A stretch of 64,000 nucleotides of DNA from Tetradesmus obliquus. Its lineage: Eukaryota > Chlorophyta > Chlorophyceae > Sphaeropleales > Scenedesmaceae. How positions within the stretch are numbered: the stretch's first letter is position 1; the number at the start of each line of letters is the position of its first letter. This document shows positions 5,413 through 64,000 of the stretch, one piece after another. The stretch spans positions 4,051,501 through 4,115,500 of the forward strand of contig CP126202.1 in the NCBI GenBank assembly GCA_030272155.1, read 5' to 3'. The position numbers and the translations under genes were made by a program. Below the pieces are notes generated by a model. It was not told where the DNA came from, did not search any database, and saw only the letters and a list, made by a program, of their open reading frames with translations.

Positions 5413-8237
5413 CTACAGAGGCTTGCCCCTAAACCCTCCACCCCCAGGAATGCCGCCGCCACCCCTCCTGCTAGGCCCGCTGCCCCTGCCACCCCCTAAA
5501 CCCTCATCCCCTTCCTCCTCCCAGCGCCGCCTAGGGTTTTGCCACTCCTGCCGTCCAGGGTTTGACCAGCCCTGGCGCTTTTCAAACGTGTCATCTCCTG
5601 GCCGGTATGGGTCCCATTCTGAGGGGCCTGCCCCGCCCCATTCATCATTATCGCCGCTGCCAAACATTGACCTGCCTCGGTAACCAAACCCTGCAAGGCA
5701 TACCAGCACAAAACAGTTTCTTGTTGTTGTTGGTGGTTACAGCGCATCTGTCAAGCAAAGTTTAATGAACCTGCTGTAGCACTTTGCTGTACATCAATAC
5801 TGCTGCACACCTCAAAGACAACTTGCAGCTGCAATCAACGCCTGCCACTGCATGCCGACACCCACCGCTGCATGCTTTCACCGCTCCTCACACGCCCACA
5901 CATGCTGCTTGCTGCTGATCACCTCGACTCCTCTGCTGGCACACAGTACGTATGCATGCATTGTGCTGTTAATCATCAGCACTTGATCTGCAACCGCCCA
6001 CCTGGATCCCTCGTCTGCTCTTCAACCCGCCTGTGCCACGCCTCGCTGCTGCCGCTGCCAAAAGGGTCTAACCGCCCGCTGCCCCACTGCCGCATGGGAG
6101 AGCCATACTGCCCACCCATCACTCGAGACAGCCTTTCTAGCATCTCCTCTGGCGACAGCTGCTGCTGCTGCTGTGAGGCATCGCCTGTGTCCTCCCTGCC
6201 GCTGCTGCTGGCTGCCTGCTGCTCCTCAGCCTCCCACATCTTCCTGCAAGCAGAGCAGCAGCACCCGCGGCAAGTGGATTAGTAGCAGACACCAGATACG
6301 GTTAATTCAAAGCTTGTTCAAATGCTAGATGTCGCTGACTGAGCCCCTGCCTGCCACACCTTCCTGCAAGCGCAGCAGCACAGCACGCACAACCAGCAGA
6401 TCAGTAGCGGGCACCAGGCGATGTGCTGTTCAAGTTGGGTCGGGTGCTGCTGGCTGCTGCTAATGCAGAGAACCACTACAACCTCCAGCGCACTGCACGA
6501 CTGCCCTCTCTGATGCTGCTTGCGCAGGCGCGTCTTGCTTGCGTCCCAAGACGTAAACCCACAGCATTTGATTCATCTCTAACCTAATTCACTGACAATC
6601 TAGATGATGCATATGATGTGACGGCATGCGATGACAAATGTAACGCCCGCACCTGTGCACCTCCCAAGGGTCGACTGTCTTGGGCGGCTGCCAGGCGCCA
6701 GGCAGCCCCTCGTCCTCCTCAACGTCCTGCAAGCAGCATCGACAGCCGATTCAAACACTGTTACATTTCAAATGTAACATGTTGCTCATCAACCCCAACA
6801 GCTGCTTGCAGGACAGCTGCCTCTCACATCTCCAGAACTCCAGCATGCAGGAACACCCACACGCTGCAAGAGCTGCAACAGCAAAAGCGGGACCGACGAG
6901 GTCGATTGGTAATGTCCTAATGATGCTGCAAAAGCTGGAAGCGTGGCACACCTGGAAGAAGTTGAGCCGGCGTGTGCGGTGTGTCTGATCGTACTGGCGC
7001 CTGCTGTCTGCATCCACCAGCGTCTCGTACGCAAGCTTGGCCTGCTTGAACTGCTGCTCAGCGTCATCCTGCGTCATTGAATGATGTCGACACCCACGGA
7101 CGCAACTCAACAATCGCGCAATAATCGCATGTCTGCAAAAAAACCTTGGCCTGCTGGAACTGCCGCTCCGCATCATTCTGTGCAATGAAAGGAGTGCGAG
7201 CATGTGAGGCCACGCGCATGTTGGCCATTGCCTTTGGTGCAGCCAGCAGACTGAGGCGCCAATCTACCATCACATATGCTGCTAGCAGCAGCAAGCAGGA
7301 CCTCAGGACCACACACATGTAGCTGCTGCAGCACACACAGCCCTGAATGAACATCCTGCACAGCCCTGCCTACAGCGTCATCACTACGCCGAGCGTGTGC
7401 TGATGCTGCCGTGCCGCTGCTGCTCCTGCCTGCGTGCTGTCATGTCGACACCACCACGCTCCTGCTGCTGCTGCTGCTTGAGCACCAGAGCACTGGCCAA
7501 AGCGCGTCCGCCTAGCACTCAGCAGCCAGGCAGCAGCAGTGCTGTTGCTCACCTCCTTGTCCACGTCTGGTTGCAACTGCTTGCTATGAACAGCAGGCTG
7601 CTTACTATGAACAGCATGCCAGCACAGCAAACATGTAGCTGCGGCAGCAATAGTGAATATTCACCTCTTTGTTCACATCTGGGTGCAGCTGCTTAGCGCG
7701 CTTCCTGTATGCTGCCCTGATGTCTTCTTCTGAGGCATCCACATCAACACCCAGCACATCGTAGTAGTTGGCTGCAGGAAGAACAAGGCAGCACGGCAAA
7801 GCATCTGCATCGGCAAGTGCTTAAAAGCAAAACTCGCACATGCTGGGCCAGCAGTTGATCTCTACATGCAGCCACGTCAGCAACCAGCACAACATAGTAG
7901 GTGGCTGCAAATCAGTTAAACGAAGGCAGTACGCAAAAGCGTGTAAACAAAACTTTAAGGAGAAACGCAGCCATGACGAATAGAAACAGTTGCTGTGAAT
8001 AGGGACAGTTGCTGTCATTGCCCAGCTCCCGGCAGCTGCCACTGGCGCCAGCTGCTGTCTGCGGCCTGGTGGAAACCTGCAGCCTGCGCCACTGCAGGTG
8101 GCCTGCTCCTGCACCATGACCTGCAATGACAGCTGTCCACCGCAGAAACACATCAATCTGCCACAGCAGTTGAAATACCACTCACGTGTCTTGGAGGCTG
8201 CTGCCACCACAGACAGCCTGCTGCTGGGCTGCCTCAT
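5413..8237 (-). CDS. J-domain (DnaJ-like) co-chaperone, 6 exons
   Basis: Exons 8237-8186, 7771-7665, 7068-6952, 6726-6661, 6239-6002 and 5690-5413 join in phase (858 nt, 285 aa). J-domain proteins stimulate Hsp70 ATPase and deliver clients. The J domain spans about residues 18-90: [19 protein letters not shown], then the HPD loop in [10 protein letters not shown], then a final helix with [19 protein letters not shown]. The short leader ending VVAAASKT resembles a plastid-targeted N-terminus, but it is brief for a transit peptide, so an upstream exon may be missing. The C-terminal two thirds has a poly-Gln run and a Gly/Arg/Trp-rich tail and lacks the Cys-repeat and substrate-binding domains of type I DnaJ, making it type III. 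The acceptor of exon 5 was chosen on phase grounds. Confidence 0.88.
7144..7177 (-). repeat. acceptor-side echo of J-domain exon 3
   Basis: Read on the minus strand, CACAG precedes sequence encoding [11 protein letters not shown]. This matches the true exon 3 start at 7068 ([11 protein letters not shown]) before degenerating. It lies in the intron upstream of the true exon. Confidence 0.8.
7548..7582 (-). repeat. donor-side echo of J-domain exon 2
   Basis: The minus strand encodes [10 protein letters not shown] followed by GTGAG, a copy of the exon 2 end ([10 protein letters not shown] then GTGAA at 7665). The copy sits downstream of the true exon in intron 2 and has the better donor consensus. 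Confidence 0.8.
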
Positions 8238-10148: not shown

Positions 10149-13100
10149 CTAGCTGGAGGGCCCCATGGCCACAGGCACCACCGGGTACTGAGCCTCGTCC
10201 GGGGTGACGCCGCCGCTGCCGCTGCTGCCACGTGCTGCTGCTGCCGCCGCCTGTGCTGCCGCCACCTGCTGCTGGTACTTATGCTGCAGCAGCTCGAGCT
10301 GGCGGGACACCGGGATGCGCAGCGCGGCCTGCGTCACAGTAGCAGCAGTTGGAGGAGGAGTGAGAGCAGCAGCAGCAGCAGTAGAGGGCACCAAGGTTAG
10401 TCACCAGTGAGCGGCACGGCGAATGACATGCACGCCAGACAGCCCAAGCACCTGATACACCCCGGCCGCGGCACCCCGGTGTGAAAATGGCTTGATGTGT
10501 TGCTGACGCGTACCAGAAACACACCTGCAGGATTCCTGTCCCTCGGGGTGCTGGCTTAGCGTCCCCACCAGCCGCTCAATGATGCGCACTTGCTTGATGC
10601 GTTACTCATGCGTTATTGTTATGTTTGACCGACACATCTTCATGAGTGCGTCGGGGTGCCGGCTTAGCAGCGGGAAGCGCCGGCCATTCAGCGCCTCCAT
10701 CAGCCGCTCCATGAACACATTGTGATAGATAGAGCGCATGTTACTAACACGTCATATAACACACACCTTCATAAGCGCGTCGGGGTGCCTGGACAGCAGC
10801 GGGAAGCGCCGGCCATTCAGCGCCTCCACCAGCCGCTCCATGAACACATTGTGATAGATAGAGCGCATGTTACTAGCACGTCATATAACACACACCTTCA
10901 TAAGCGCGTCGGGGTGCCTGGACAGCAGCGGGAAGCGCCGGCCATTGAGCGCCTCCACCAGCCGCTCAAAAGGAGCGGCCAGCAGCGTATCCTGCGCGCT
11001 CAGCAGCAGTGCAGCACCCACGCGGAACACCACCTGCATCACAGAACAGCAGCAGCAGCAGCAGCAGCAGCGATTGCATCGACCGCAGGGTGAGTACATC
11101 GAAGCACTAGACTACGTTCTACCCCCCAGCATAGACACAGCCGACCATGCATTGTAAAGGCAATCCTTCTCGGAGCAGCCAACCCCAAATAATGACCATG
11201 TTTGACCACCTTCGATGACAGTGCGACCAGGGTTCACCAGGTTTGACCGAGCAGCTGTCCTCACCTTCATGCCCTCCAGCAGGAACACGTCCCACACGCG
11301 CAGCAGCTGCTCAAAGGGCAGGCTGTACGCAAAGATGGTGTTGAACCAGTGCGTGCAGTACATGCTGGGCACCACGCCCTCCTGCAAGCAGAAGCAGTGG
11401 AACAGCAGCAACAACAGTGACAACGGTTACACTACGTGACCAAAAATTGGGTGCAGACGGTTGCAAACCAGTGCGTGCAGCACATGCTGGGCACCACGCC
11501 ATCCTGCCGGCGCCAAGCAGTGGAACAGCAGCCACAAATGTGGAGATGCGTACAGGTGATTATTGAACCAGTGCGTGCAGTACATGCTGGGCACCACGCC
11601 CTCCTGCAAGCAACAGCAATGGAACAGCAGCCACACCAGTGATAGCGGTTGCACTACATGAGTAAAGGTTGAATGAATGCAGTTGCAAACCAGTGCGTGC
11701 AGTACATGCTGGGCACCACGCCCTCCTGCAGGGGAGGGAGGCAGCAACGCCAATCAGCAGCGACACGTGACATGTCACATTGCTGGCTAGCTGCCTGCCC
11801 GGACCGTGGGCGGAGGAAGCAACCCGTGGGCATGTCGAAAAGCCCTGCTGCAGGAATGGCACCGATCCCACATGTAGAGCCACCGATACATTGAAGAGCA
11901 AGCCACGCGTGCTTGCAAACTGCAAGGCCCCGGCTGGTGGATTTTCTGCCTGCAGGCATCCAAGATGCACGCTTCACCAAAGCTGCGTTGATGCGAAGTC
12001 ATGTGATTGGCATTGGACATCATAGTCCATTTGAAATTCAATTTCGAATGAATTCCTTTGCAGGAATCTCACCGCCTCGAGGTGCCCTCCCAGCTTGGGC
12101 TGCTCCTGCTTGAGCAGCTCATGGAACTGGAACAAAAACTGCTGCAGCAGCGGCATGCCTGCCTGGTACATGCCCTCCAGCGGTGGGTGGCTGCTGCTGC
12201 CTTTCAGCAGAGCAGTCAGCGTCCAGAAGGCCTCCTCTTCCGACATGTACATCAGCAGGATGGCTGTCACAAAGCCCATGCCTTGCACGTAGCCCACCTG
12301 CGGCAGTACCAGGCAGGAAACAGCAACAGCAACCAATACAAGCCTTGTAACATTGAACCCAGGTAGAGCGCGTGTGGCTGCAGGAAGGGGTTGTAAGCAA
12401 CCACCTCGCTGCGACATTTACACAATTGACAGAATGGCCACAGCAGAGCAGTCAGCTTCCACAAGGCCTCCTCTTCGGACATGTACATCAGCAGGATGGC
12501 GGTCACAAAGCTCATGCCTTGCACGTAGCCCACCTGCGCATGTGTTTGGCAACAATACGTTTGGCAACAGTATGACTGACAGCGGGGAGCAGGCTTCAGC
12601 GCCAGCACCTTAATCAGACACTGTACTAAAGCGGGAACAACCAGCTTCAATTGCACAGTACAGGTGTGCTGCGCACCTGGCGCACTTGCGCACCAAACTG
12701 GAGACAAGGCGGACACATGCGCTGCTGGCCCAGCTCTGCCAAACACATGCAGCACACGCAGCTACACCGCAATGCAAACACAAACAAACTGACCGCTCTC
12801 TCGCGCACCGCCGGTCATGTGCACTGTACGCGCGCAGCACATGAAAGAAGCTCAAGGCAACCACCCTGGGTCTGGCAATCACACGGTTCCTGCAAACTCT
12901 CCACACCTGCCGGTCGTGTGCGCTGCACCATACATGCAGCACACGCAGCTACATCGCAACGCAAACACAAGCACAGCTGACGGCTCTCACGCCCACCTGC
13001 CGGCCGTGTGCGCTGTACGCACGCAGCACGTGGAACAGGCTCTGCCGGCCCAGGCCCTGCCAATCACAACACCCACAGGCATCACCAACCTCAGCCCCAG

Positions 13101-16100
13101 CAGCCACAACACAAAGTAACCACTGATGAACACACTGATGAACACACTGTTCCTGCACTTATCTACTTCTCACCTGCCGGTCGTGTGCGCTGTAGGCACG
13201 CAGCACGTGGAACAGGCTCTGCTGGCCTGGGCCCTGCCGCTGGTGGAAGAACACGTGGTTGGGGAAGGTGCGGTTGAGGTCTCGCATGATCTCCAGGTCC
13301 ACGGGGTCGCTGCCTGAGGTGAGCAGCCGCGCGTAGTGCCCAGGGTGCGCCTGCATCAGCTCACGCCCGCCTGCGCAGCGTTTGAAAAACAAAAACAGCA
13401 GCGAAAGGTGAGGGGCAGATGAGTGAACAGCAGGTAACGATGTGACGTGGGCGCGCGTAGTGCCCAGGGTGCGCCTGCATCAGCTCGCGCCCGCCTGCGA
13501 GGGACGTGACAAGGCCAGGAATGCACAAGCATCAGCACCGATGAGAGGGGTTTGGTGAATAGCTGACGTGTGCTGCTGCATTATTTGCACACGCCACGCC
13601 ACGCCACGCCACGCCACGCCACGCCACGCCACGCCACGCCACGCCACGCCACGCCAGGCCCTGAGCCCATCAGCCGGCAGCAACAGCGCGGCATCATATC
13701 ATACCCTGAACAAGTTCAGCACAACTTTGATCAAACAACACTCCATGCTGCACAAGCCCCAAACTGACAGGTACTGCCAGGACAGGCCCCTAAACTCGTC
13801 AGGGATGCCCTTGCGCACGCGGCGCTTTGAATCCACGTGACACCCTTGTGCTGTACAGCTGACAGTCACTCAACAAGTCACAACACGTCATGCGGAACCT
13901 GATCCCCACGTGACAGGTACTGCCGGGCCAGGCCCCTGCACAGAACAATCAGCAGGCAGTGACAGCGCGACACCATATTATACCCTGATCAACTTCCCAG
14001 TACACAACACATGCCTGAACCCAAACCCCCACCTGACAGGTACTGCCAGGCCAGCCCCCTGAACTCGTCAGGGATGCCTTTGCGCACGCGACGCTTCAGC
14101 TTCTTGGGCCGTGACGCAGCGTACGCCATGAACTCCTCCCTGCACGACACCAAAACAAGGGTGAAAAACTCACTCCATGCCAGTGAGAAGTCCACAGTGA
14201 GCTGATGAGAAGTATGCGATGTGCTGGCTAGCTTGCGGCGAGGGCTGATGTGTGAAGACCGTGAATATGGCCAGCGGTGGTACTTCTTTGCAAGACACAG
14301 CAGTGATGCTGCAATCAGCGCACCCAAGCTCCGGCACACACCTACACCCGCAGCTCACACACTTGACATACATGCAAGCTAAGCCCAGGCACAGCGCGCA
14401 ACGTGCAGCGCACCACCCAGCCAACGCACCTGCTGCTGCCCAGCATGCGCCGCCACTTGGCCACGTGCCGCTGCTCCCGCTTGGCCTGCGCGGGCGTGCG
14501 CCGCGCGCGTGCTGCGCGTGCATGCGCCTCTGCCTCACTCACTATGAAGCCGTATCTGTCCAGGTGCAGCCGCTCAGCATGCGCCAGCAGCACCTGCGTC
14601 TCTGTGAGCTTGCCTGCAGGACGGCAGCAGCACCAAGGGTTTTGTCACTTTACAACATGCCCGTCTGTAAGCATGGCTGCAGCCGCTCAGCATGCGCCAG
14701 CAGCACCTGCGTCTCTGTGAGCTTGCCTGCAGGGCAGATGATTGGCAACAACAGACACAGATATGCGTTTGGCGCGTAACACGACAGTTGCGATGCGCGA
14801 TGTTGGGTGAGCTTATGAACGCGTGCTGGCGCCACCTGCGTCCCCATGAGCGTGCCTGCACAGGGCAAATAACGGCAGCAGCCATGTTGTAAAACATGTT
14901 ACAGGACACGCTGCATGACCATGATGGTTGTTGAGTATGTGAGCTGGGCTGCCCCCAGGGGAGCAGCCTGCCTGCAGCACAGCGCTTGCTGGCCATTGCT
15001 GTTGAAGCATAGTATGCTGCACTCGGCTTTTGAACAACAAGACACAAAGCCAAAAGGCGCAGCGCAGCAGCAGCCTCACCTTGGGGCACCTCATAGTCAG
15101 GGTCACTGCTGATGCTGCGGGTGACAGAGCCGACTGCTCTGGCTGCTGCTGCTGCTGCTGCTGCTGCCCCTGCCTGGCCCTGCTGCTGCTGCGGCTGATG
15201 CTGCTGGCTGCTCCGCTGTCTGTTAGGTGGTTCTTGTACCTGCTGCTGCTGCTGACCAGGCTCCTGCGGCAGCTGCTCCTGCTGCTGCTGCTGTCCGTTA
15301 ATGCTACCCAACCCATTCTCCTGCTGCTGCAGCTGTATGCTAGGCCCCGCAGCGTCCATGCCCACATCAACCCAGCTACTGCTACTGCTGCTGCGCCTAT
15401 GACTTTCTGACAGCAGCCGATCCCTCTGCTGCTGCTGCTGCTGCAAGCACGCCCTGCTTGTACTACTGCTGCTGCTGGGCTCCGTTGTAAGGTCAACTGC
15501 AGCATCGCCGCACTCCAGCCCGCCACTATGCACAGCAGCAGCATCTGCTGTGTGACCACCACTCACTGATGAGCTTATGTCTGAGCTGCTGCTGCCATCA
15601 CCGTCGCTGCTGCTTTCAGCAGGCACACCAACAGCTGCCCTCAGCCGCTGCGCCATCATGCTGCTGCTGCTGCTGCTGCCAGCACTCGTGCTGGGTACTA
15701 AAGTAACATCAGGATCAGCAGCAGCGGGAGGAGCAGCAGTAGCAGCAACGGGGGGCGCATCGCTTGCTGCTGCTGGGGCAGGCATGCATGCTGCTGCTGG
15801 TTCTCGTGCTATCACTGCTGGCAGCCCCACTGCTGCTGCTGCTGCTGCTGCTGGTTCTGGTGCTATCGCTGCTGGCGGCCCCGCTGCTGCTGCTGCTGCA
15901 ACAGGTGGAGCCAGCAATGTGACAACGTGGCCCGGCTTCTGTCGTGGGCTGTGCTGTGAGCTTGGTGCCACATGCTGCCTGCTGTGCTGCTGTGCAAGTG
16001 CCTGCCGCACACTGTGCTGTGCTGGCTGCAGCATCCTTGAGCCTGCAGGGCTGCGCGGTGAAGCAGCAGCGCTGCGGGGGCTGCTGTTTGCGGCAGATTT

Positions 16101-23284: not shown

Positions 23285-24426
23285 ATGGAGGAGCTCCTCA
23301 CATCACAGCTGCAGCAGCTGCAGGTGGAGCTAGCACGCGCGCAGCAGGCCCATCAGGCTCTGCACATCAAGCAAGCAGTAGTCTCAGCCATGTGCACCGC
23401 GCTGCAGGCCATGCAGCACGAGCTGGACCCCTCAGAAGTAGTAGCAGACGAAGAGATGTATGACCCGATGGACTGCAGCGCAGCATTTAAAAATCCTGCA
23501 GCCAGCAGCTCCCAGCTCACACATGCTGACCTGGCGCTGCTGCAGCAGCTGCGCCCCGGCATGCAGCAGCAGCAGCCCTGCTGCTCAAGCCTCAGCAGCA
23601 ACCAGTACCCCTGCTCCCCAAGCACCCCTCGCCAGCCTCCAACCAACACAGCAGCAGCAGCCAGCAACGCCCCTGTTGCGGCCGGCAAGCCTTCTGCAGC
23701 AGCGGCTGCCGGCGATCTGCCCGCGTTGCGAGGCGACAGCAGCAGCAGCGGCAGCGGCGGCAGCAGCAGCATCGATGAGGCCGACGGCTGGCCAGACGAC
23801 ACCTTGTCACCACCCGACGACCCCCTGCGGTTCTTAAGGCAGCTTTTGCAGGATGGCCCTCTACCTTGGGCTGCTAGCATCACCCTACCTGAGCTACAGC
23901 AGCAGTACCTATCATCCTGCAGGGAGGGCCTGCTGCACCTAACCCTGCTGGACAACCAGCAGCACAACGAGCAGCAGCCAGCGCAGGCGCAGCAGTCGCT
24001 GGCGGTGGTCAAGCAGCTGCTGCAGCAGCACCTGCACCGCTGGACCAGCCTGCTGGTGTATGGCCGCAGTGACCTGCTGTACCAGTTCCACCTCACGTGA
24101 GCAGACACTGTTTCAACAATAACATTGGTATTTTTGGTCTGATAACATAATGATATAATTGATTGCCGCAGCGACCTGCTGCACCAGTTCCACCTCGTGT
24201 GAGCTGCAACTGAGAGGCACAGCAGCCAGCAGCCATGCTGTTGATACATGAGACACAACAGCCAGCAGCCGTGCAGATGAGACACCGCAGCCAGGTTCAG
24301 AGGTAGTGTGCAGCGCCTTGGATTGGCACTGCCATGGCAGCAGCTGGCTACTGCCCGAAGCAATAACATGCTGCTTGCATCACTTTGTGCAGTGCTAGTA
24401 GCCAACCCTGCTGTACTTTGTATCAT

Positions 24427-24458
<32 letters not shown>

Positions 24459-24562
24459 GCTTCTGTTGTCCTTGGCTGCTGCTGTCTGGCCTTGCCTGCT
24501 GCCGCAGCAACTGCCTGACTCGTGTGTGGGTGGAGCAGCAAGACATGCGGCCCTACCAGGCA

Positions 24563-24599
<37 letters not shown>

Positions 24600-43416: not shown

Positions 43417-43447
<31 letters not shown>

Positions 43448-43571
43448 GGCTGCTGCTGCTGCTGCTGCCGTTTCCCGTGTGCAGGCTTGCCTCACTGGCC
43501 GGCAGCACATCATGGGTGACGATTTATCCCCAATGCTGATGCATCCAATGCCCCTGCTGTGGCTGCTGCTT

Positions 43572-43614
<43 letters not shown>

Positions 43615-43738
43615 GGCTGCTGCTGCTGCTGCTGCTGCTGCTGCCGTTTCCCGTGTGCAGGCTTGCCTCACTGGACGGCAGTACATCATGGGTGACAGCT
43701 TATCCCCAATGCTGATGCATCCAATGCCCCTGCTGCTT

Positions 43739-46057: not shown

Positions 46058-46735
46058 TCGAAAGCAACAATGATTAGTGCAGCTTAGCTCGAGCCGCTAG
46101 TGCATGTGTCAATGCAGTCAAAGGGCAGGCATGCACTGCTCACCTTTGCGGCTCGCAGCCATGTTGCAGCTGCAGCTATATTCAACTTCCCAGCTGCCTG
46201 CAGCTAGCCATCAACCACGCCTGCGGACCTGCTTTGTGCCGCTTCTTTCAACCCCTGCCACACCCGCCTGCTGCCTTGTTCCCTGCAGAACTTTGTGGTA
46301 GACATTGGTGCGCCCTTCCCTGCACAGCTTCCCATGCTGTCATTTGAGGGCGCCACACGCCGCAACCGGCCCAACCTGGTTGCAGGAGACCTCGTGTACG
46401 CGCGCGTCATTACAGCCAACCGAGATATGGATCCAGTGCTAACATGTGTGGACGCACAGGGCAAGTCCAGCGGTTTTGGGGCGCTGAAAGGCGGTTTTGT
46501 GCTGGAGTGTGGTTTAGGGCATGCACGCGCACTGCTGGCGAGGCCTCCGGCACCGCTGCTGGCTGCCTTGGGGGCCAAGCTGCAGTTTGAATTAGCAGTA
46601 GGGTTGAACGGCAGGGTTTGGTTAGATTCCAGCAGCTGCGCAACAACAGTCAAAGTGGCGAACGTGCTGCAGCAGGCGCAGGGTGTGGCGGCGGCTGAGG
46701 TGCAGCAGTGGGTGGCAGCGCAGCTGCAGCAGTAG
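45392..46735 (+). CDS. RRP40: RNA exosome subunit RRP40 (EXOSC3 family), 4 exons
   Basis: Exons 45392-45424, 45546-45706, 45947-46004 and 46289-46735 join in frame (699 nt, 232 aa, the family's normal length). RRP40 is one of three S1/KH cap subunits that thread RNA into the exosome in nucleus and cytoplasm. The N-terminal domain has VVAPGDAV and VRIGPGLR. The S1 domain has RYIPAEEDLVVGTITDRRGE, then VDIGAPFPAQLPMLSFEGAT and RRNRPNLVAGDLVYARV. The KH part has the diagnostic GLNGRVWLD (GMNGRIW in animals). The tail ends EVQQWVAAQLQQ, and that stretch is duplicated beyond the stop. Confidence 0.95.
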
Positions 46736-46737
46736 CA

Positions 46738-46925
46738 GCAGTGGCCGCCGGCGCAAGGCGTGGCGACCGCTGAGGTGCAGCAGTGGGTGGCAGCGCAGCC
46801 GCAGCGAGAGCAGCAGTGGCAGCTGAACCAGCGGGCAACAGCAGCAGTGGCAGCAGGCGCTGCGACCGCTGAGGTGCAGCAGTGGGTGGCAGCGCAGCTG
46901 CAGCGACACCAGCAGCTGCAGTGGT
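46738..46925 (+). repeat. two echoes of the RRP40 coding end beyond the stop
   Basis: TGAGGTGCAGCAGTGGGTGG followed by CAGCGCAG recurs at about 46770 and 46870 after the true copy at 46696, each time in a GCGxCGGCTGAGGTG context. They lie in the 3' UTR or flank. Confidence 0.9.
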
Positions 46926-48662: not shown

Positions 48663-51424
48663 TCACAGCACCAGCTTTGCAAACACAGACACCCATAGCG
48701 TCACCGGCAGCACCGCCAGCGTATACAGCTGCAGCAGCAGCCGCGCCGTTGCCGGCGCCAGCCCCGCAGTGCTCGGCTGCAGCTGCATCATCAGCACCAG
48801 GTTCTGTGCAGGCGGCATGGCGCTCTGCAGCAGCAGCATGAACGCACACACAGGATCTGCCGGCAGCAAGCTGTAGCGCAATGCACCTAGCACTAGCAGC
48901 ATAGTGGCAGAAGGCAGCAATACAAAGCGTACTGCTGCTACAGCCAGCAGCGTACGCCACTCCCAGGGTGATTGAGGAGTCAACTGACTCAGCACGGAGC
49001 TGCTTGCGTCATCTGCTGTTGTGGCGGAGCGGTGAGTAACTACGATGCCGCTGACGCTAGCTTGCCGGTAGCCGCCGCCGCCGCCGCTGCTGCTGCTGCT
49101 GCTTGCTGCTGCTCCTGGTGGTGAAGTGGGCAACCGGGTGAAGCTGCTGCTAAAGCTGCCCTGCTGCGGACCAAATAGCGATGTACCGGCACTGCTGCTG
49201 CTGCCGCCAATATTGCTGCTGCTGCTGCTGCCACTGAGTGGTGTCAAGCCCAATTCTGTACTGCTTGCAAGTCCCTCAAATTCAAGTGTACTGCCTCCAG
49301 GTGACTCAACCTCCACTGTACCCTGGGCATTCCTGAACCCTGAAGCATCAAACCCTGCAACCGGGCCGCTGTCACCCCCACCCGCGACATCTGCCATGCT
49401 GCTCGTGCTGCTGCTGCTGCTGCCGGTGCTGCTGCTGCTGCCTTGCTTAGGCCCAAACAGTGAAGCGGCAAGGACAATCGCCTGCAATGCGAGTGTCCCT
49501 GATGCTAAAAGCTCTACAGTCTCCCAGCAGCAGCGCAGCACTCCCAGCAGCACTGACAGCTCCCAAGCTGTGAAGGCAGTGGTGGTATGCGCTGTTACAA
49601 ATGCTGCTGCTGCTGAGCCGTCACACAACAGTATGCCTGCAGGACTCAGGCCCAAAGCCAACCCTGCAGCAATGCAGACAAGCAGCACAGCATTTGTGGG
49701 TCAATGGTTCCGTTGATTTGCTGTCAAAGAACACACAGACTTGCTCCGTGTCAGGGACAGTGCGCAGCGGCCAGGGCAGTTGACAAGGGGTTGTTTGCTG
49801 CCTCAGCCAGCCTGACACATTTTGCCCCAAACATATGCTCTTCGGCATGTGCTTGTGGCAGATTGATCCACGTGACGCTGCTTACACTGCTGTCCTGCAA
49901 GCACGCACATGCAGAGCCATGAGTTTTAGCCACCACTATTGTCCTGATGATCAGCTCAACAAATGCAGCTGCAGCCAACCCAGCCCAAACCATTATCCAC
50001 CCCGCCAGCGCACCTGCAATGACTGCCGCCACGGGAGGGTTTATCGCCTGCCGCACTGCCTGCACAAACCCTAAACCCCCAACCGCCGTCAGCACCCCCC
50101 AGAGCCTCTTCACCAGCATCTCAGCGGGAGTTTCATCGTGAACTTCTGCCTCACTCTCACTGGGAACTGCATACACAGCACGGCCAGCTGACCCTGGCCC
50201 TGCTGCTGCTGAGGGCAGCTGCTTTGTTATCAGCACTGCGGGTTGGCTGCTGGGGGGCGAGAAGCCGCTGCTGCTGCCGCTGCTGCTGCTGCCTTGCTGA
50301 GAAGTGTCACTGCTGCTGCTGCTGCCGCCGCTGAGTGCTGCTGCCAGGCGGGACCAGATGAAGCGCAGCTGGCTGCGGAAGCCTGCGGCATGTTATATAA
50401 CAAAGTCAAAACGGTCAAACACAGGCAATGTTCGACTGTTGACCCGTATTGTCCAGAACCCAGGAGCACATATACCGCAGCAGAGAAGCTGTGACAGCCT
50501 GAGGCGAGCAGGCCAGCACAAAGCAACGCTTTCCTGCAACACCTTTTGTGATGCATGTGGGGAACAGCCTGCATGCACCTCTTTCCTATTAAGCCTAGCG
50601 CAGATGCCAGGCGGTTGGCCGCAGTCCCAAGTCTGTGTCTGTCACAATGCGTGTCGTGGCCAAGGTGCCAACATCAAGGGCGTGAAACTTCCAAGAGGAC
50701 ACAACAAGACACAGGATACACGATCATAAAGGTGGTCGGCTGTGATAACAAGTGTGCATTGTAGTAATCGCTTTGTGGCCTTCGCACCTCTCCGCCTGCC
50801 CTTGGGCCTGCCAGTTGCCTGTATGCTGCTGTAGCCAAACACACATATCATTCAGAACATGCCAGGACCCGCATGTCACTATCCTCTGTCAAACACAGTG
50901 CTGGCGCCGCCTCACCTCTCCGCCTGCCCTGAGGCCTGCTAGTGCCTTGGATGCTGCTGTATCCAAACACCCACAGGCAGGGCGACCACGCCGCATGGAA
51001 CAATGACATGAAGCCTGTGGCACGAGCAGCCTCTGCCGCCGGCAGCATCGTCAGCAGGTACATCAGTGGTAGGGTGACTGTGTTACCAAAGGCGCAGGCG
51101 AGCCGCGTCAGCTGCGGCAGGCCTTCTGGAGTGCCCTGAGATCTAGGCAGCAGCGCAGGAGCGGCCTGCACAGAGCATGAAAACAGCAGCAGCAGCAGCA
51201 GCGGCAGCAGCAGGTTGCAGCGTAAGGAAGTTGGTTCAAAACAGCAAGCGAGTCAGTACACAGGACCGCACATGCAAGCGGCAAGACGCGCTCCTGCAAG
51301 GTACACCAACGGCAGCGCGACTGTGTTGCCAAAGGCGCAGGCCAGCCGCGTCAGCTGCAACAGGCCCTGGGGGGTGCCCTGAGATCTAGGCAGCAGCGCA
51401 GGGGCGGCCTGCAAAGAGCATGAA

Positions 51425-52670: not shown

Positions 52671-52706
52671 GTCCTGCAAGCATAGCCCTGCGGTGTCTGG
52701 GCTTGA

Positions 52707-52743
<37 letters not shown>

Positions 52744-53603: not shown

Positions 53604-56600
53604 ATGCATACTGCCCCAGTGCAGGTGACTGTCGTGGAGTATGTCTCTGAGTTCTTCCGAAAGTACAAGAGCAGGGCCTATGGCAAGAGCATCAGCGTCA
53701 ATGCCAAAGGCGGGGCTGATGCCCTCATGGGTGAGCGCAGCCAGCAGCAATTGCAGCAGCAGCATCTGCCAGAGGCGGGGCTGGCGGTCCCATGCATCGT
53801 TCAGCATCTTCTGCCAGAGCACATATATAGACACTCCCTAGCTTGCTGGGCTTGAAAACTAGCTGTCAAATGCTCAAAAAGCCAGCAGCAGCCGCATGCA
53901 CGACTCAACTGTACTCTGCATGTGCTTGCTTGCAGGAATGCTCAAGCTCGTGCTGTCCAAGGGAGGCAGGGAGGAGCTGCGCATCGCCCTGCACTGCTTC
54001 AAAGACCAGCTGACAGCAGCAGTTAACAGGTATGGTGGTGCCAGCACGCACTCAAAGTCAGCAGCCAACACCTTGCAGGGCCCTGACAGTGTTTGTGTTT
54101 GCTGTGATTGTCCGCACAAGCTGAAATCCCAGCAGGCAGCACAGCTTGCAACAACGGCGGTACCAGCAGGTAAGCTGTGAGCAGATTGTGCGCTCAAGCA
54201 ACGCGCCTGCACAGCAAGAAAGGGTGGGTTAGTTTGACCAGGGTTGGATCAAGCCCAAAGTGATGTGCTTTGCAGTTGACTCGCAAACGCTTACGCTTAC
54301 TTCCGCGTGTCCACTGCCTGCAGCGCCCCTGCCACGCGCAGCCAGCAGGTGGAGGAACTGTTTGCGGTGAGCCACTGCAACAAGACATTCAGGAGATAGC
54401 AGCGGGTGCAGCAACAGCAGGCAGGAAGGCAGCAGGCTGGCAGTTGTATCAGCTGTGTGAAGCAGCAGCTGTGCACACCGCACCCGGCATCTGGCAGACC
54501 CATGGCGCATGCGCGACCGTGCTGCCTGTGCTGCCGCTCTGCAGTGGCTGTCGTGACGTTGACACTTGTGTCGTTTCACTGCTGCTGCAGCTGCTGTCTG
54601 CGCTGGTGGATGCTGCGGAGCGTCTGCGCCAGTTCAGCGCCTGCTTGCCTCCAACGCTTGCCTGTGTTATGATGCCACCCTTCTGCCGCTGCTGTCACTG
54701 CTGCTGCAGCTGCTGTCTGCGCTGGTGGATGCTGCGGAGCGTCTGCGCCAGTTCAGCCCCGTGAAGGAGGGCCTCAGCGCGGCAGTACTGGAGGAGGTGC
54801 GCTGGAGGCTCTTCAGAGTGGTGAGTCGCTGCTGCTGCTGCTGCTGCTGCTGTGTGGTAATGGTTGGTGCTGCTGTGTTCAGTTCAGTGCGTGGTGCGTG
54901 AGGATGCACAGCTGCAGCTGCATGTGGTGCTGCTGGAGGTGCGCTGATGGCTCTTAAGAGCGGTGAGCTGCTGGGCCCTAGCTGCTGGGATCCAGCTGGT
55001 TACTGGAGTCAGCATGGCAGGCGGCGGTGTTTGAAGTTTTCTGGCTGCATGCATGCATGTGTCTGCATGCATGCATGCACAGCTGCAGCTGCAAGTGGCT
55101 CAGCAGCCACGTGTTTGCAAGAAGTTGTCGGCTGCAGCTCGTGTCTGCATCGCCAGTGTGAGTTTTGTTTACAGGTGGGGCGCGTAGGTCGTGTGCAGGG
55201 CAGTTCCTGCAAGGCCTGCCATACTTCCCTGCTGCCATTTCTGTTACCACCCTTCCTGCAGCTCGCTGGTGATGGCTGCAGCGAGGTGCCAGGCGTGCAG
55301 TTGATTTGATTTGCCATGCTGCCAACGCTCATGCCGCTCTGCCGTTTGCCTGCAGCTGTGGCCGGTGACGGCTTCAGTGAGGCGCGGGATGTGCACACTG
55401 CACAGCATCGCATCTAAAGTGATTGCCAAGGTGACAACCCCAATCTTCTACCCTGTCTTACTGTCCTTCCTGCTGCTTGCAGCTGGCTGGTGACGGTTTC
55501 AGTGAGGCGCCAGATGTGCGGCGGCGTGCATTGGACCTGGTCTTCCTCTCCCACATGCGCGAGGCGGCCGAGCTGCAGCAGCAGCAGCAGCGGCACAAGC
55601 AGCTGGTGGCCGGCGGCGCGGCCGCCGCAGCCGGGCCTGCAGCAGGCATTGCTGCTGGCATTGCGGCAGCAAATGCAGCGGCGGCTGGGTTCACTGTCGG
55701 TGGGTCAAGTGGGAAGCCCGGGTCACCAAGTAAGGCTGCGCGGCTGCTGCAGCGGCGGGCTGGTGGGCTTGCCGGGCCTGATGTGAGCAGCTGGGAGGGG
55801 CTGTGGTGCAGCCTGGGCGCAATGTCTGGCCGGCGCATGCTGCCGCTGCTGCAGGTGGGTGGCGAGGGGAGGCAGGCGCAGGCACATAGCGCAGGCATTG
55901 GACAGTATGCATGCAGGGTTGATGTGTTGGCTGGTTGCGTGTGCTGTGTGGTTGAGCAATCCTGAACGTTGATTTCGTGTATGACAGCTTGCTGTCATAC
56001 GATGGCTGTGCTTTGTCTGCAGGATTCGTGCCGCATCCAAAGCTCTGACCTGTGTTATCATGCTTGCTGCTGCAGTCTGTTATGGCTGATCTGTACCTGG
56101 GCAAGCTCATTCCTGGAACACCAGCAGCAGCAGTCGGGGCAGCTGCCAAAGCAGGTGCATCACAAGCAGCAGCAAAGCAGCAGCAGCAGCTTCAGCTACA
56201 GACAGCAAGCATTAGCAGACCTGCAGAGGCTGGGGTGAACACCAAAGCAGCAGCAGGCACCACAGCACCTGCTTCAGCAGCAGCAACAGTGGGGCCAGCA
56301 ACAGCAGCAGGTATAGCAGCGGCAGCAGTTGGGGACGACGCAGCTTGCGGTGTGCACACGCCTCCGCAGCGCACCTCAGATAATGACGCAGCGGAAAGCA
56401 GCAGCAACCAGCAGCAGGATGTGGATGGCAGCTCGAGCAGCGTCGACGCTGCAACTGTGGTCACTGCCGGGCATGCGCTGTCAGCTGGTGACGCTGCCCT
56501 GCATGGTGGCGGCCCTGGCAAGCAGCAGCAGCAGCAGCTGGAAGCAGCAGCAGCAGATGCAGATGACACTGATGCTCGGGATGAGGGCGCAGTTGAGGCT

Positions 56601-58395: not shown

Positions 58396-58468
58396 TGGAG
58401 TCGGAGGGTATCGATCCCCCTACCTCTCGCATGCTAAGCGAGCGCTCTACCATCTGAGCTACGACCCC
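58396..58468 (-). tRNA. trnA-AGC: tRNA-Ala (AGC anticodon)
   Basis: The 73-nt minus-strand sequence folds as a cloverleaf. The acceptor GGGGTCG pairs with CGACTCC (one G-U), the D arm starts AGCTCAGATGG, the anticodon loop is CTTAGCATG with AGC, the T arm is GGGGG/CCCTC, and the discriminator is A. There is no intron. A TTTTT run (minus strand, 58388-58384) lies 7 nt downstream as an RNA polymerase III terminator. Confidence 0.97.
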
Positions 58469-58540
58469 GGAACCACACCCCGCGTCAGCGACTCACGGAC
58501 AGGGATGCTTTGCCGGTGAGCCTCTGACAGCAGTTCCGAG

Positions 58541-58614
58541 TGCCACCTATCGGATTCGAACCAATGACCTCCTCCTTACTAAAGAGGCGCTCTAACCAAC
58601 TGAGCTAAGGCGGC
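58541..58614 (-). tRNA. trnT-AGT: tRNA-Thr (AGT anticodon)
   Basis: The 74-nt minus-strand cloverleaf has acceptor GCCGCCT pairing with AGGTGGC (one G-U), AGCTCAGTTGG in the D arm, anticodon loop CTTTAGTAAG with AGT, GGTTCGAATCC as B box, and discriminator A. No T-run follows it before tRNA-Ala, 72 bp downstream. Confidence 0.97.
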
Positions 58615-59337: not shown

Positions 59338-59381
<44 letters not shown>

Positions 59382-59406
59382 GCTGCTGCTGCTGCTGCTG
59401 CTGCTG
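58615..59406. other. intergenic region between the tRNAs and the kinase gene, with a CTG array
   Basis: No gene was recognised. 59338-59405 is a CTG array directly abutting the kinase stop codon on the 3' side. Confidence 0.5.
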
Positions 59407-59518
59407 TCACTCCTCCTGCAGGAACTCGTGCTGCAGCAGCTCGCCGGCGCTGGGCCGCTGCGCGGGGTCGTACGCCAGCATGGACATGACCATGCTCTGG
59501 AGCTGCAGCACCTGCGCG

Positions 59519-59549
<31 letters not shown>

Positions 59550-61101
59550 GAGCAGCCATGTATGCGCGATGTGCACTTATATTTAGCATTTCAAACGAGG
59601 TGCTAGTTTGATATGTCCAATACCAAAATATCACATCTCATCAGCATGATGCGCTGTTTGTCCCAAGCTGTGCAATGCCGTGCCCGGTGGGGCTCCTGTA
59701 GCTGTTAATGTTGCATCCCCTCAGCATGCGACACCCGGGGATGCTGGGTTCAAGGTTGTGCGTTTCAAATACTGGGGAGTGTAACAACAGGCCGTGGCCC
59801 CTGCCCCACACTTGCTGAAGCATGTCTTGGCTAATGTGAGGTGCCATGAACACTCACGGCACAGCCAGCACAAGCAGGCAAGACGGAAAGCAGGATAGTT
59901 GTGAGGTGTCTGCTGCCGCACCTGGCACATGTTGCGGCTGATGTTATTGCAACATACCATGTGCGGACGACATGCATTGATGGCAGAGGATGACATACCA
60001 AGTTCAAATTCAACTTCAAGCTGAATTGCAGGGCTGCACGTATTGCAGCCGCACCTGGCACATGTCGGGGCTGATGTGGCGCACTGTAAAGTAACACAAT
60101 AAAATTGAAGTCCAACAACAATAGAGGCGTATCCTCATGCGCTATCGCATCCAGTGCATATCAAGGCAACATAGCCGCATCATGCACGGCACATCGCCAG
60201 GCCAAATCCACCGCACACGTGATTCAAATAAATAACACATGCTATTGTGTAATTAAAGACTTAGCCAAGACACGCACCGGGGTCATGTCAGGCGTGATGC
60301 TGCGCAGGATGTTTTTCTTCTCCACCTGTGCTGCGATGGAGAGCGTGCTGCCCTTGAGCTCATACACCGCGCACAGGTGCAGCAGGTCGTTGGGAAGGTA
60401 CAGCTCGCGGAAGCGCGGCGAGCTGCGCGTAAACTGCAGAGATGCAGAAACAGCACACACGTCAAACAGCGGAATAAAGGCCAAGACAGCTCTAAAAGGC
60501 GACCAGAAGGCAGCACACAGGTGCAGCAGGTCGCGGAACCGCGGCGAGCTGCGCGTGAACTGCACCGGGAAAAGACAAGGCAAGTAGAGCAGCGGAGATA
60601 TCAGCAAGGCGGCGCACAGGTGCAGCAGGCCGTTGGGCAGGCACAGCTGGCTGAAGCGCGGCGAGTTGCGCGTGAACTGCAGCGATGCAGAAGCAGCAAG
60701 GCACACACGTCATACAGCAGAATTCAAAAAAAGCAAAGGCAGCTCTAAAAGACGCCAAGAATTGCGACCGCTGCTGCTGAAAAGAGGTGCAGGGCTGGCT
60801 GGGCATGCCCGCATCAGCGGTGAGAGCTTTGTTACCAGCTGTATAACACAATGCCACCTTGATCACCGCTCATGCGGGCATGCCCAGCCAGCCCTGCATC
60901 TCCATTAACAGCAGCTGTTATGACAAAGTGTTGCTGTGTTGTTACTAATGTGTTACTGACTGTTATAACACACTGTTACAAAGCGCTCACCGCTCGTGGC
61001 GGCGAGCCCAGCCAGGCCTGCATCTCCATCAGCAGCAGCGCATCGTCGGAGTATGGTTTTGTTCGAGGGTAATCCTCCCGGCGCCCCGCCAAGCTGCAAG
61101 G

Positions 61102-61132
<31 letters not shown>

Positions 61133-61605
61133 GTGGCAGGCGGTGTCGACGGACTGTATCAGGGAACGGGAGCCTCAAGCAGCACTACTGCCGGCGTGGA
61201 AAGCAGCCTGGCAATACTCTGCTGTGAAAAGTGGGGTATGCAAGCCGGCGGGATTGCCTGTGGCCCTATTCTGCTCAATCGGTGTGTGGCTCATCTATTA
61301 TTTAATCAATCAGTTGGACGCTTTTCTAGCAAGAAGTGGCTCATCTGCAATACCCATACCAGTTGCACACCATCCCATACACACCACCCGCATTAGCTGC
61401 TGCTCGAGAAGGTTCATCCCCTTGTGCTGTCTGTTTGGGTAGATTTGTAACAACAAACTGTAACACATAACAACATAACATAACACAACTCACTCTTTCT
61501 CATCCCACATGCGGTACCCCATGGCCAGCTCTGCCAGCAGGCAGCCGAGGCGCCAGATGTCATAGGCGGGGGTGGCATACGGCAGGCCAAGGATCTCCTG
61601 TGCAC

Positions 61606-61652
<47 letters not shown>

Positions 61653-63321
61653 GGGTCATACACATGTGTTGTAGGTGGGAGCGGCATACGGCAGCCCCAG
61701 GATCTCATGCATGCAGCGACAGCAGCAGCGAAACGCAAAAGACCAGGGTTGCAGGCAACAGACACGAGTGCTTCAACACAAATATACATCATGGCAGCAC
61801 CAGCTTCCGACTCCCCTGTTACACATCGTCCAGATACGAGATTAACATACATGTGACAATGTAACACCGTTATAATGCCTCACCTCCGGCGGCCGCAGGC
61901 AGGGGTCCGTGGCAGCCAGGGCGCCGTCGAGCTCATACGGCGCTGGCTGCAGCAATATCTTCGAGCCTTGCGCGCTCACAACTCGCTTCAGCCGCATGAG
62001 TGCAGTGCCTGCTTCCGGCCCGGAAAGCTTCCGCGGGTCGTGAATGGGTGGGGCAGCCTCCAGCAGAGACCCCTGCTGCGCGGCCAGAGGTTTAATCAGC
62101 ACTGCGCGGCCAAAGTCTGCCAGTCGGAATGTTGCGGTGTGCAGCATGAAGATGTTGTACTCTTCCTGCAAGCTTTCCTGCAGGAGGCACAGAGTGGGAT
62201 GGAGAAATGGGAAGTGACTATGAACGCTTTTGTTTGTCATGAATTACCATGAAGTTCTAAACTAGATGTAAAGCTTTAAGCGTCTACCTATTGTTACTTT
62301 TTCATGTGTCTACATACCTTTTGGCAGCCATCGTGCACGGCACAGCGGCTTGCAGCTGGACAGCAGGTGCTCGTTTGTGGCGGCCTGTGAAACTCCTGAG
62401 TGCAGGTGATAAAAAAGACCTAAAACATGCAGTGCGCGTCGAAGATATGTATGCTCTAGAATCAAAGATCGATGACACGCTTTGGTTGGCTGTGCGACAT
62501 GCACGGAGAAACATGCCAACCCAAGTCGCATCAATGCATGTGCATTGCTCTGCTACTGCGGAGTCGGGATCCTGCGCCTGATTGTGACGCAAGTGCAGCT
62601 GTGCAGTATGCGGGGAGGATATGCCGGCGCGATGTGCGTCAATGACACTGCTGTCGGCGCACACGAGCAACTACTACTGCAAGCACGCTGCGCAGCGCTC
62701 ACCTCTGTGCCGTGCTCTGCGGCATCCCCTTCTTTGCCTGCTTTGAATGGCTTGGACTTGGCTGGCCGCAGCTTTTGCAGCAGCACCTCACGCATCGCCT
62801 TGGCCAGCACCCAGCCGACTTTCAGGTAGTCTCCAAGACCCACACTCCGCTTGGTGCCAAGGACGACAGCATGCTGCAGGTGTGACAGGAGGTGTGACAT
62901 CAGGTGTGACATCAGGAGTGACATCAGATGTGACATCAGGTGTGACATCAGCTGTGACATCAGGTGTGACATCAGATGTGACATCAGGTGTGACATCAGC
63001 TGTGACATCAGGTGTGACATCAGATGTGACATCAGATGTGACATCAGGTGTGACATCAGATGTGACATCAGGTGTGACATCAGATGTGACATCAGGTGTG
63101 ACAGCAGGTATCCAAGGACCGCAGCATGCTGCACGGCAGCAACATCCGGCTGGCATTGTTGCACCCTTTCAGATCAAGATCATAAATTGTCATCATGATT
63201 ATCGTTGACAAACATTACTGATTAGTAACATTTCATATGTGTTCCAAGTGGCCGCCTCACCGGCTTATCCATGATTATGTTGTCCAGAGATAGGTCCATG
63301 TGCACAATGCCCCGCCTGCAC

Positions 63322-63371
<50 letters not shown>

Positions 63372-64000
63372 GCCAGCTGAGCCAGCAGTGCAGATCAGTG
63401 CAGTGCATAGCGCTGTGGCACAAGCCAGGGCAACGCACCACATCAGCCACCAGCTTAGGGGCTGAACCCCAAACCTAACCTAGCCAGCAGCCAACAGCCT
63501 GTAATCCTGCCAGGTGATGACGCACCTGCAGCAGCTGCTGGGCTGTGCTGCCACCGCATCCTAAGACAATTACTGCAGAGAACCCTGTTCAGATAGTTCA
63601 GCCTCACTCACGAGTGCAGATGGTGCAGCGCCTGCAGCAGCTGCCGGCATATGCTGCCGCAGAATCCCATATAATGCACTGCAGAGATCGCGTTTGAAGC
63701 AGCTCAGCCTTACTCACGGGTGCAGGTGGTGCAGCGCCTGCAGCAGCTGCCTCTTAATGTTGCCGCTGGATCCTATCCAATGTACTGCAGAGAATGCATT
63801 CAAAGCAGCTCAGCCTCACTCGCGAGTGCAGGTGGTGCAGCACCTGCAGCAGCTGGCTCGCACTGCTGCCACCGCATCCCAACCAATTCACTGCAGAAAA
63901 CCCCGTTCAGCTGGTTCAGCCTCACTCGCGAGTGCAGGTTGCGCAGCGCCTGCAGCAGCTGCCTCGCAATGCTGCCGCTGGATCCTACCCAGTGCACTGC
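59407..64000 (-). CDS. protein kinase, 5' part beyond the right edge, at least 8 exons
   Basis: Exons 63315-63261, 62873-62703, 62177-61884, 61597-61494, 61093-60991, 60433-60278 and 59511-59407 join in frame to a TGA at 59407. A further exon in 63.6-64.0 kb (RQLLQALHHLHS) splices in phase 2 to the catalytic loop. Landmarks: catalytic loop GIVHMDLSLDNIIM (HxDLxxxN with Asp present), an insertion with KRSVGLGDYLKVGWVLAKAM, ADFGRA (DFG), LRPPEE in place of APE, YDIWRLGCLLAELAMG (subdomain IX), YSDDALLLMEMQAWLGSPP, and finally MLAYDPAQRPSAGELLQHEF (subdomain XI Arg). The ATP-binding lobe is outside the window. HMDLSLDN and PPE are atypical. Family and substrate are not assignable. Confidence 0.87.
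59825..60085 (-). repeat. three donor-side echoes of the kinase exon ending at 60278
   Basis: The exon end RSITPDMTP plus GTGCG recurs as HISPDMCQ (about 60051-60080), ISRNMCQ (about 59920-59945) and HISQDMLQ (about 59815-59842), each close to a GTGCGG or decayed donor. All are downstream of the true exon. Confidence 0.75.
60500..60685 (-). repeat. acceptor-side echoes of the kinase exon starting at 60433
   Basis: Copies at about 60500-60562 and 60615-60682 encode QFTRSSPRFRDLLHLC and QFTRNSPRFSQLCLPNGLLHL, against the true FTRSSPRFRELYLPNDLLHL. Both lie upstream of the true exon. Confidence 0.88.
60786..60900. repeat. inverted pair of exon-end echoes (38-bp hairpin arms)
   Basis: Arms 60786-60823 and 60863-60900 are reverse complements with 36 of 38 matches and a 39-nt loop. 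Both derive from the kinase exon end MEMQAWLGSPP plus donor at 60991. One copy is in gene orientation, the other inverted. Confidence 0.9.
61676..61712 (-). repeat. acceptor-side echo of the kinase exon starting at 61597
   Basis: The minus strand repeats EILGLPYA (true exon start at 61597), then diverges. A CAG array separates it from the true exon. Confidence 0.85.
62880..63106. repeat. 12-bp minisatellite (GTGTGACATCAG)n
   Basis: About 19 head-to-tail copies with GTG/ATG/GAG variation at the first bases lie in a kinase intron. The sequence flanking on the right (CAAGGACCGCAGCATGCTGC) echoes the exon start on the left (CAAGGACGACAGCATGCTGC). Confidence 0.95.
63510..64000 (-). repeat. about 106-bp tandem array of a kinase exon end
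   Basis: Five copies (near 63515 partial, 63602, 63709, 63814 and 63920) encode variants of RQLLQALHHLHS and its donor. Only the copies near 63602 and 63709 keep a GT at the right place, and the 63602 copy gives the best in-phase junction to the catalytic-loop exon. The array runs to the window edge. Confidence 0.9.

Follow-up and report, generated by a model that had tools for sequence, protein, structure and literature searches.

Introduction

In one potato gene, a direct duplication encompassing the 3′ end of an intron and the 5′ start of the next exon made a new intron (PMC4974935); as far as the excerpted text of that report goes, the usual case for tandem duplication as a source of intron gain and growth is built on a small number of examples. 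In the human genome, small tandem duplications arising by fill-in of break ends are the commonest short (<100 bp) insertions, according to the extract considered here (PMC8355091). We analyzed a 64,000-nucleotide window of the green alga Tetradesmus obliquus (contig C12, positions 4051501–4115500), in which introns contain truncated copies of the edge of a neighboring exon, hereafter called echoes. Introns of this alga average 462 bp and number 7.8 per gene, versus 230–302 bp and 4.0–5.7 per gene in three other Sphaeropleales; the figures given for Chlamydomonas reinhardtii are 270 bp and 7.5 introns per gene (Table 1 of PMC5966456).

Echoes are abundant, direct and preferentially spaced by about 122 bp

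The genome (104.66 Mb in 17 contigs) was sampled over 314 kb, namely the window plus 200 kb of contig C1 and 50 kb of contig C5; the G+C content is 57.3% in the window and 57.6% in the C1 block. Pairs of copies were detected by a lag scan with low-complexity masking at spacings of 60–419 bp, and the window was also compared with itself by blastn, which returned 64 local direct repeats less than 4 kb apart. The lag scan yielded 206 pairs (63 in the window, 64 in C1 and 79 in C5), to be compared with 16 pairs at control spacings of 20–59 bp, 20 at 420–779 bp, 1 at 1000–1359 bp and 0 at 2000–2359 bp in the same 314 kb. Exon-edge echoes are confirmed as real, far above chance and extending beyond the window. 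Such closeness, together with the orientation of repeats less than 400 bp apart (160 direct versus 1 inverted), is what tandem duplication predicts. Seven genes of the window had been singled out as echo-bearing by a first-pass annotation, and all of them contain pairs (TBC, 20; GST, 9; PILS-like, 9; kinase, 7; 23285 gene, 4; 53604 gene, 3; J-domain, 2); the patchiness that it described is also seen, the lag scan finding no pair in the kinesin and ZC3H3-like genes. As regards gene identities, Pfam matches to RabGAP-TBC, kinesin and RRP40 lie above the cut-off and those to DnaJ and Pkinase below it; the remaining names are those of the first-pass annotation.

The spacing of the copies is not arbitrary, with a preferred value near 122 bp. 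Among pairs spaced by 60–160 bp, the median is 123.5 bp in the window (n = 34), 121.5 bp in C1 (n = 40) and 122 bp in C5 (n = 39); by location, it is 124 bp for exon–intron pairs (quartiles 113–133, n = 65), 122 bp for intron pairs (n = 37) and 123 bp for exon–exon pairs (n = 7). The few exon–exon pairs obey an in-frame rule, their spacings being multiples of three in seven cases out of seven. Harmonics are also present: 56 pairs are spaced by 200–300 bp (median 243) and 21 by 330–410 bp (median 369). Copy length correlates negatively with the length of the gap (−0.69), but the restriction of spacings to 80–150 bp accounts for part of this, and the ruler is therefore based on the spacing histograms. 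Intron lengths display no clear periodicity of about 122 bp (the highest Rayleigh value is 2.25, at 120). As a separate observation, exon–intron spacings in the 314 kb (window, L003–L027) distribute as 14, 33 and 18 among the residues 0, 1 and 2 modulo 3 (chi-square p = 0.01).

Echoes lie on the intron side of the edge that they repeat

Outside homology-mapped genes, exons were called with a self-trained gene finder, which misplaced some junctions and accepted some echoes as exons. Echoes indeed mislead gene prediction: repeated peptide segments were inserted into the RPT3 and TBC models. Because gene models treat echoes as exons, polarity was assessed by outside homology. Residues 20–311 of an RPT3-like protein from a solved proteasome (8amz_K, presumably from spinach) served as the reference for an alignment on the C5 block. 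The 13 echoes identified in RPT3, which were chosen by eye, all show the polarity put forward in the first-pass annotation, with acceptor copies upstream of the true exon and donor copies downstream; the echo at 40869 scores merely 18.9 bits, yet it lies inside a 61-bp repeat found by the lag scan.

The same arrangement is found in two Pfam families searched in the whole 104.66-Mb genome, in which only the best candidates were scored (96 matches for PF00118 and 47 for PF00133). They contain 23 truncated repeats, six of which fit neither class. Of the 17 classifiable ones, seven match their partner at the exon start and are located upstream of it, nine match at the exon end and are located downstream, and one is discordant (16/17 concordant, p = 1.4e-4, with a classification rule written after the tables had been inspected). 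Cases that fit the polarity are present on 8 of the 17 contigs (C1, C5, C10, C12, C13, C14, C16 and C17). Echoes are not universal, some genes being free of them. Mutually exclusive exon duplications reportedly comprise whole exons with both splice sites, whereas 17 of the 23 repeats share one end and are truncated at the other, each echo carrying one exon edge. Note that polarity alone does not point to any special process, since no other arrangement should leave the normal mRNA intact.

Copies are enriched at exon edges

In the 314-kb sample, the 80 clusters of pairs spaced by 80–150 bp comprise 59 exon–intron, 15 intron, 3 exon–exon and 3 intergenic clusters. Uniform placement of a 122-bp unit, units inside exons being left out, puts 33% of the clusters at exon edges. 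The observed proportion, 59 out of 77 once the exon–exon clusters are excluded, is well above this value (p = 3e-15), so that the excess of boundary-spanning copies called for in the first-pass annotation is seen on predicted exons. If edge copies are assumed to stay visible twice as long, 49% are expected and the excess persists, both overall (p = 7e-7) and for clusters of at least 95% identity (15/21, p = 0.03). This test is indicative, as it uses predicted exons and some of the "intron" clusters look by eye like missed edges. The duplicated stretch typically meets a splice junction: in 44 of 51 one-sided pairs, it extends up to or past the predicted exon edge on the side of the echo, and RPT3 behaves likewise.

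Echoes retain splice signals and decay in a near-neutral manner

The copies show about 79–100% identity, in keeping with the graded decay noticed previously. Their exon part has a median length of 45 nt in acceptor echoes (n = 31, median spacing 125 bp) and 43 nt in donor echoes (n = 28, median spacing 123 bp). At the first, second and third codon positions, the two copies differ by 0.041, 0.032 and 0.092 in pairs of at least 90% identity and by 0.120, 0.102 and 0.185 below 90%, a pattern near that expected for one neutral and one constrained copy; these values rule out strong coding selection on echoes. The AG is kept in 25 of 31 acceptor echoes (neutral expectation 25.7) and the GT in 24 of 28 donor echoes (neutral expectation 22.3), which fits neutrality. 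Sites that keep AG or GT have median scores of 5.0 (acceptor) and 5.6 (donor), compared with 5.7 and 6.9 for the true sites; for random intronic sites, the 90th percentile of AG scores is 5.8 and the 95th percentile of GT scores is 4.6. The suggestion that echo-bearing genes carry decoy splice sites is therefore plausible.

The fraction of pyrimidines upstream of the AG is 0.619 in echo acceptors (n = 31), 0.625 in their partners and 0.494 at random intronic CAG; it is 0.624 in the echo acceptors of the 10 pairs with unalike flanks. Although the set includes some misplaced junctions, this pyrimidine-rich stretch favors an origin in which the acceptor region was duplicated as a whole, and disfavors the pasting of exon pieces at random intron positions.

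Origin of the echoes

On balance, we lean toward recurrent local tandem duplication, with a unit of about 122 bp, tolerated across exon–intron junctions and leaving an echo that drifts neutrally. Local tandem duplication would be frequent, with a favored unit near 122 bp, and would have founded every pair. Where a unit spans an exon boundary, a normal mRNA could still be made from the copy adjoining the main part of the exon, as the original splice pair remains. The other copy would become an intronic echo, located upstream if it derives from an acceptor and downstream if it derives from a donor; within coding exons, only in-frame units would survive. The echo would then drift neutrally while its partner remains under purifying selection, so that the exon half of the repeat should be recognizable longest. 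Existing repeats could spawn further copies in unit multiples, giving arrays of two to five copies and longer introns. If introns lengthen in this way, continued echo formation predicts longer and more numerous introns, with which the tabulated values for T. obliquus show a correlation only. This scheme does not by itself account for the length ruler or the exon bias.

Several results weigh against this reading, at least in its plain form. After a plain 122-bp duplication, similarity should be nearly as high on the intron side as on the exon side. In the pairs whose exon identity is at least 95% (n = 10), identity on the intron side starts at 0.87 over the first 6 nt and then drops to 0.41–0.53. 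Flanks were compared by gap-tolerant, junction-anchored alignment at 17 curated loci (an eighteenth, without copies, was excluded) and called related when the score of a copy pair exceeded 95% of the null distribution. Nine loci have one or more related flank pairs (at c1 33269, only two of six pairs), and the other eight show no above-chance flank similarity, with exon edges 90–100% identical. Clock-like decay cannot give unrelated flanks beside such edges. Ungapped comparison had overstated flank unrelatedness, and intron-side similarity is still detectable in 35 of 59 junction pairs. Coverage of the spacing tells a similar story: among 29 pairs of at least 95% identity (spacing 80–160 bp, ungapped), six cover at least 90% of the spacing, three of which belong to one 22-bp satellite, and 21 cover less than 60%; among the 13 pairs of at least 97% identity, the corresponding numbers are 1 (the 22-bp satellite) and 11. 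Similarity thus fails to span the whole unit in young copies, though some whole-unit arrays do exist (10632–10967 in the window, c1 62911 and c1 100392). Furthermore, the enrichment at exon edges is larger than even a twofold visibility bias gives, and the ruler is less distinct in other settings: the only four intergenic pairs (spacings 85, 100, 106 and 137 bp) are too few for a peak. Finally, the repeats of the Pfam families lie 134–758 bp from their longest partner, at most 150 bp in only 3 of 17 cases, so that the ruler of about 122 bp rests on the 314-kb sample; these distances and the coverage of near-identical pairs argue against plain duplication. Partial gene conversion receives no support either, mismatches being clustered at p < 0.05 in just 5 of 70 pairs.

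Hence, of the simple tandem duplication initially proposed, local duplication across exon–intron junctions is supported, and its simplicity not fully so, the intron flanks being far more diverged than the exon edges. Tandem duplication is best viewed as a working model rather than as the established class of the echoes. Either the exon edges were homogenized after founding or copying was exon-limited from the start; exon-restricted re-copying or homogenization would keep the exon edges alike. In arrays such as RPT3 QEEY and TBC, flank similarity is higher between alternate copies (scores of 82.5 and 81.5) than between neighbors (16–27 and 38–42), which suggests that blocks of two units were duplicated at a later stage.

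The most serious competitor, which we nonetheless regard as unlikely, is exon-edge-specific copying tied to splicing: a stretch running from the splice site some 25–100 nt into the exon, and ending a few nucleotides past the junction, where splicing factors sit, would be copied. Nascent RNA or exposed DNA would be the template, and the copy would enter the adjacent intron at a distance of about 120 bp. Similarity does end near the splice motif, with a median ungapped overhang of 7 nt for acceptors and 13.5 nt for donors; the unrelated flanks and the poor coverage of near-identical pairs are as this mechanism predicts, as are the direct-only orientation and the edge excess at high identity, and two introns that were tested have no other genomic source. 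However, the pyrimidine-rich stretch also precedes echo acceptors, most junction pairs keep some intron-side similarity, whole-unit arrays exist, and the in-frame exon–exon pairs have a similar median spacing. In addition, we know of no enzyme that performs such copying. A shade less probable still, in our judgment, is the proposition that exon edges, as defined by splice sites, are preferentially copied, and copied again and again, at a fixed distance of about 122 bp into the adjacent intron by a splicing- or transcription-linked process; were it true, splicing would mark DNA for duplication and drive intron growth.

A functional role, in which selection would maintain echoes as alternative or decoy splice sites that modulate splicing or trigger decay of mis-spliced mRNA, appears improbable. 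The good scores of the sites that keep AG or GT agree with this idea, and exon–intron spacings divisible by three are somewhat rare (14/65, p = 0.048), as if in-frame mis-splicing were avoided. Nevertheless, the codon-position differences and the loss of AG and GT fit neutral decay, and echoes are found in unrelated housekeeping genes, in variable number.

We give still less credit to introner-like mobile introns with very long target-site duplications, whose copy–gap–copy layout with unrelated gaps resembles that of echoes. A genome-wide search with two echo-bearing stretches, too few to exclude a mobile family, revealed none: each stretch matches its own place only, apart from a local true edge in one case. 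Among 45 gap sequences, 22 match nothing else in the 314 kb and the other 23 match mostly neighboring copies or weakly; copy length varies, and total spacing does not track it. When the gap sequences of the 35 flank-unrelated pairs were compared with the local ±800 bp, eight gave strong matches, which correspond to neighboring copies, and the rest weak ones or none; inverted matches are weak (largest z 4.7). Lastly, an assembly artifact or chance similarity in repetitive, CTG-rich sequence is scarcely credible: simple repeats do abound and some of the predicted exons are false, but only 1 and 0 pairs occur at the far control spacings, low-complexity sequence was masked, divergence is graded, and polarity holds in homology-mapped genes, with fitting cases on 8 of 17 contigs.

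Features of the window and of RPT3

The positions of the main edges and echoes are collected in Table 1. At the TBC edge that begins with GAGGGCGTGGTGCCC after an intronic cag, four copies stand in a row, and the copy continuous with the exon is the last one in the direction of transcription. Some arrays of the window are of another nature: the array at 10632–10967 is a whole-unit tandem repeat, and that at 46669–46921 (+) lies in the RRP40-like coding region and has a tandem unit of 75 bp, which is divisible by three, as should hold within an exon.

Table 1. Exon edges, echoes and tandem arrays (window positions, unless the C5 block is indicated)
Feature	Position	Strand	Evidence or remark
Whole-unit tandem array at predicted TBC donor edge	10632–10967	−	129-bp period, 2.6 copies
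TBC true acceptor edge (intron end + GAGGGCGTGGTGCCC...)	11344–11386	−	blastn self-comparison; RabGAP-TBC Pfam match
Acceptor echo 1 of 11344 edge	11466–11508	−	spacing 122
Acceptor echo 2 of 11344 edge	11566–11608	−	spacing 222
Acceptor echo 3 of 11344 edge	11688–11730	−	spacing 344; 43/43 identical
TBC exon VGYVQGMGF..., true acceptor edge	12205–12302	−	self-comparison; Pfam
Acceptor echo of 12205 edge	12441–12538	−	98 bp, 95%, spacing 236
TBC true donor edge ...AYSAHDRQ/gt	13171–13238	−	lag scan
Donor echo of 13171 edge (TBC)	12994–13061	−	spacing 177
TBC true acceptor edge GCGGGCGTGAGC...	13328–13375	−	self-comparison
Acceptor echo of 13328 edge	13452–13499	−	48 bp, 98%, spacing 124
TBC acceptor edge GCAAGCTCACAG...	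14565–14620	−	predicted exon
Acceptor echo of 14565 edge	14678–14733	−	56/56 identical, spacing 113
J-domain gene acceptor edge	7033–7081	−	predicted exon
J-domain acceptor echo	7142–7189	−	self-comparison
23285 gene donor edge	24060–24110	+	predicted exon
23285 gene donor echo	24162–24212	+	spacing 102
23285 gene acceptor edge NCLTGVQMEQQDMRPYQ	24710–24836	+	predicted exon
Two acceptor echoes of 24710 edge	24435–24706	+	periods 145 and 130
GST acceptor edge	42234–42313	+	predicted exon
GST acceptor echo of 42234 edge	42105–42184	+	80 bp, 96%, spacing 129
GST acceptor edge	43779–43820	+	predicted exon
Acceptor echo array upstream of 43779 (GST)	43324–43696	+	self-comparison
GST donor edge	43897–43980	+	predicted exon
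Two GST donor echoes of 43897 edge	44033–44339	+	spacings 136 and 369
PILS-like donor edge	50913–50973	−	predicted exon
PILS-like donor echo	50785–50845	−	spacing 128
53604 gene acceptor edge LLSALVDAAERLRQF	54695–54760	+	predicted exon
53604 gene acceptor echo	54576–54641	+	66 bp, 98.5%, spacing 119
Kinase gene donor edge	60987–61039	−	predicted exon
Kinase gene donor echo	60863–60915	−	spacing 124
Kinase gene acceptor edge	61563–61622	−	exon with weak Pkinase match
Kinase gene acceptor echo	61672–61729	−	spacing 109
RPT3 acceptor edge GPRMVRDVF	C5 block: true 43660; four upstream copies near 43159, 43269, 43411, 43540		homology
RPT3 acceptor edge QEEYIKEEQ	C5 block: true 40591; three copies upstream		homology
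RPT3 donor edges STTG, GPPGTG, SVNVK	C5 block: two downstream copies each		homology

Other features of the window are an open reading frame at 27733–29238 (−) whose translation, judged by eye, is like the reverse-transcriptase end of a non-LTR retrotransposon, and genes for tRNA-Ala(AGC) and tRNA-Thr(AGT) at 58396–58468 and 58540–58614 (−), about 70 bp apart. Two arrays lie in or beside the kinase gene, a 12-bp minisatellite of about 19 copies (62877–63109) and a 106-bp tandem array (63511–64000). An intron of RPT3 contains a 22-bp satellite array with copies about 97% identical (c5 39796–40060, end of L026 to start of L027), unrelated to the echoes.

Relation to known systems

Echoes represent many plausible false splice sites as well as raw material for intron growth. 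With echoes of graded age in many genes of one genome, the rate and unit length of duplication, its tolerance by splicing and its conversion into new introns become measurable. No report of genome-wide exon-edge echoes was found in the open-licence PubMed Central literature, judged by title and abstract opening.

At c1 69627–69827 (L009:9627–9827), an acceptor echo is directly followed by a good donor-like GTAAGC; from its sequence, the echo and the gap could act as a mini-exon and a short intron, like in the potato case.

The closest precedent for echoes is that single potato gene (PMC4974935), in which the true exon likewise has a partial copy next to it, so that two acceptors are present. 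The difference is that one gene acquired a new intron there, whereas many genes are concerned here; moreover, the excerpted report mentions no unit-length ruler, in contrast to the value of about 122 bp found here. The model of intron gain from an exon-internal AGGT also invokes tandem duplications in genes that are resolved by splicing and leave the protein unchanged. It starts, however, from an AGGT inside an exon, whereas in echo formation the copied splice site was already in use and an existing intron would grow. Tandem duplication of mutually exclusive exons resembles echo formation in that exon sequence is repeated in the neighboring intron, as the consulted extracts describe (PMC5224494, PMC5740500). 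Fill-in duplications, for their part, are short direct duplications that arise without a mobile element, but the extract considered reports neither a length peak of about 122 bp nor a bias toward exon edges (PMC8355091). Compared with these systems, what seems new in T. obliquus is the density of echoes in one genome, their ruler of about 122 bp and their exon-biased persistence.

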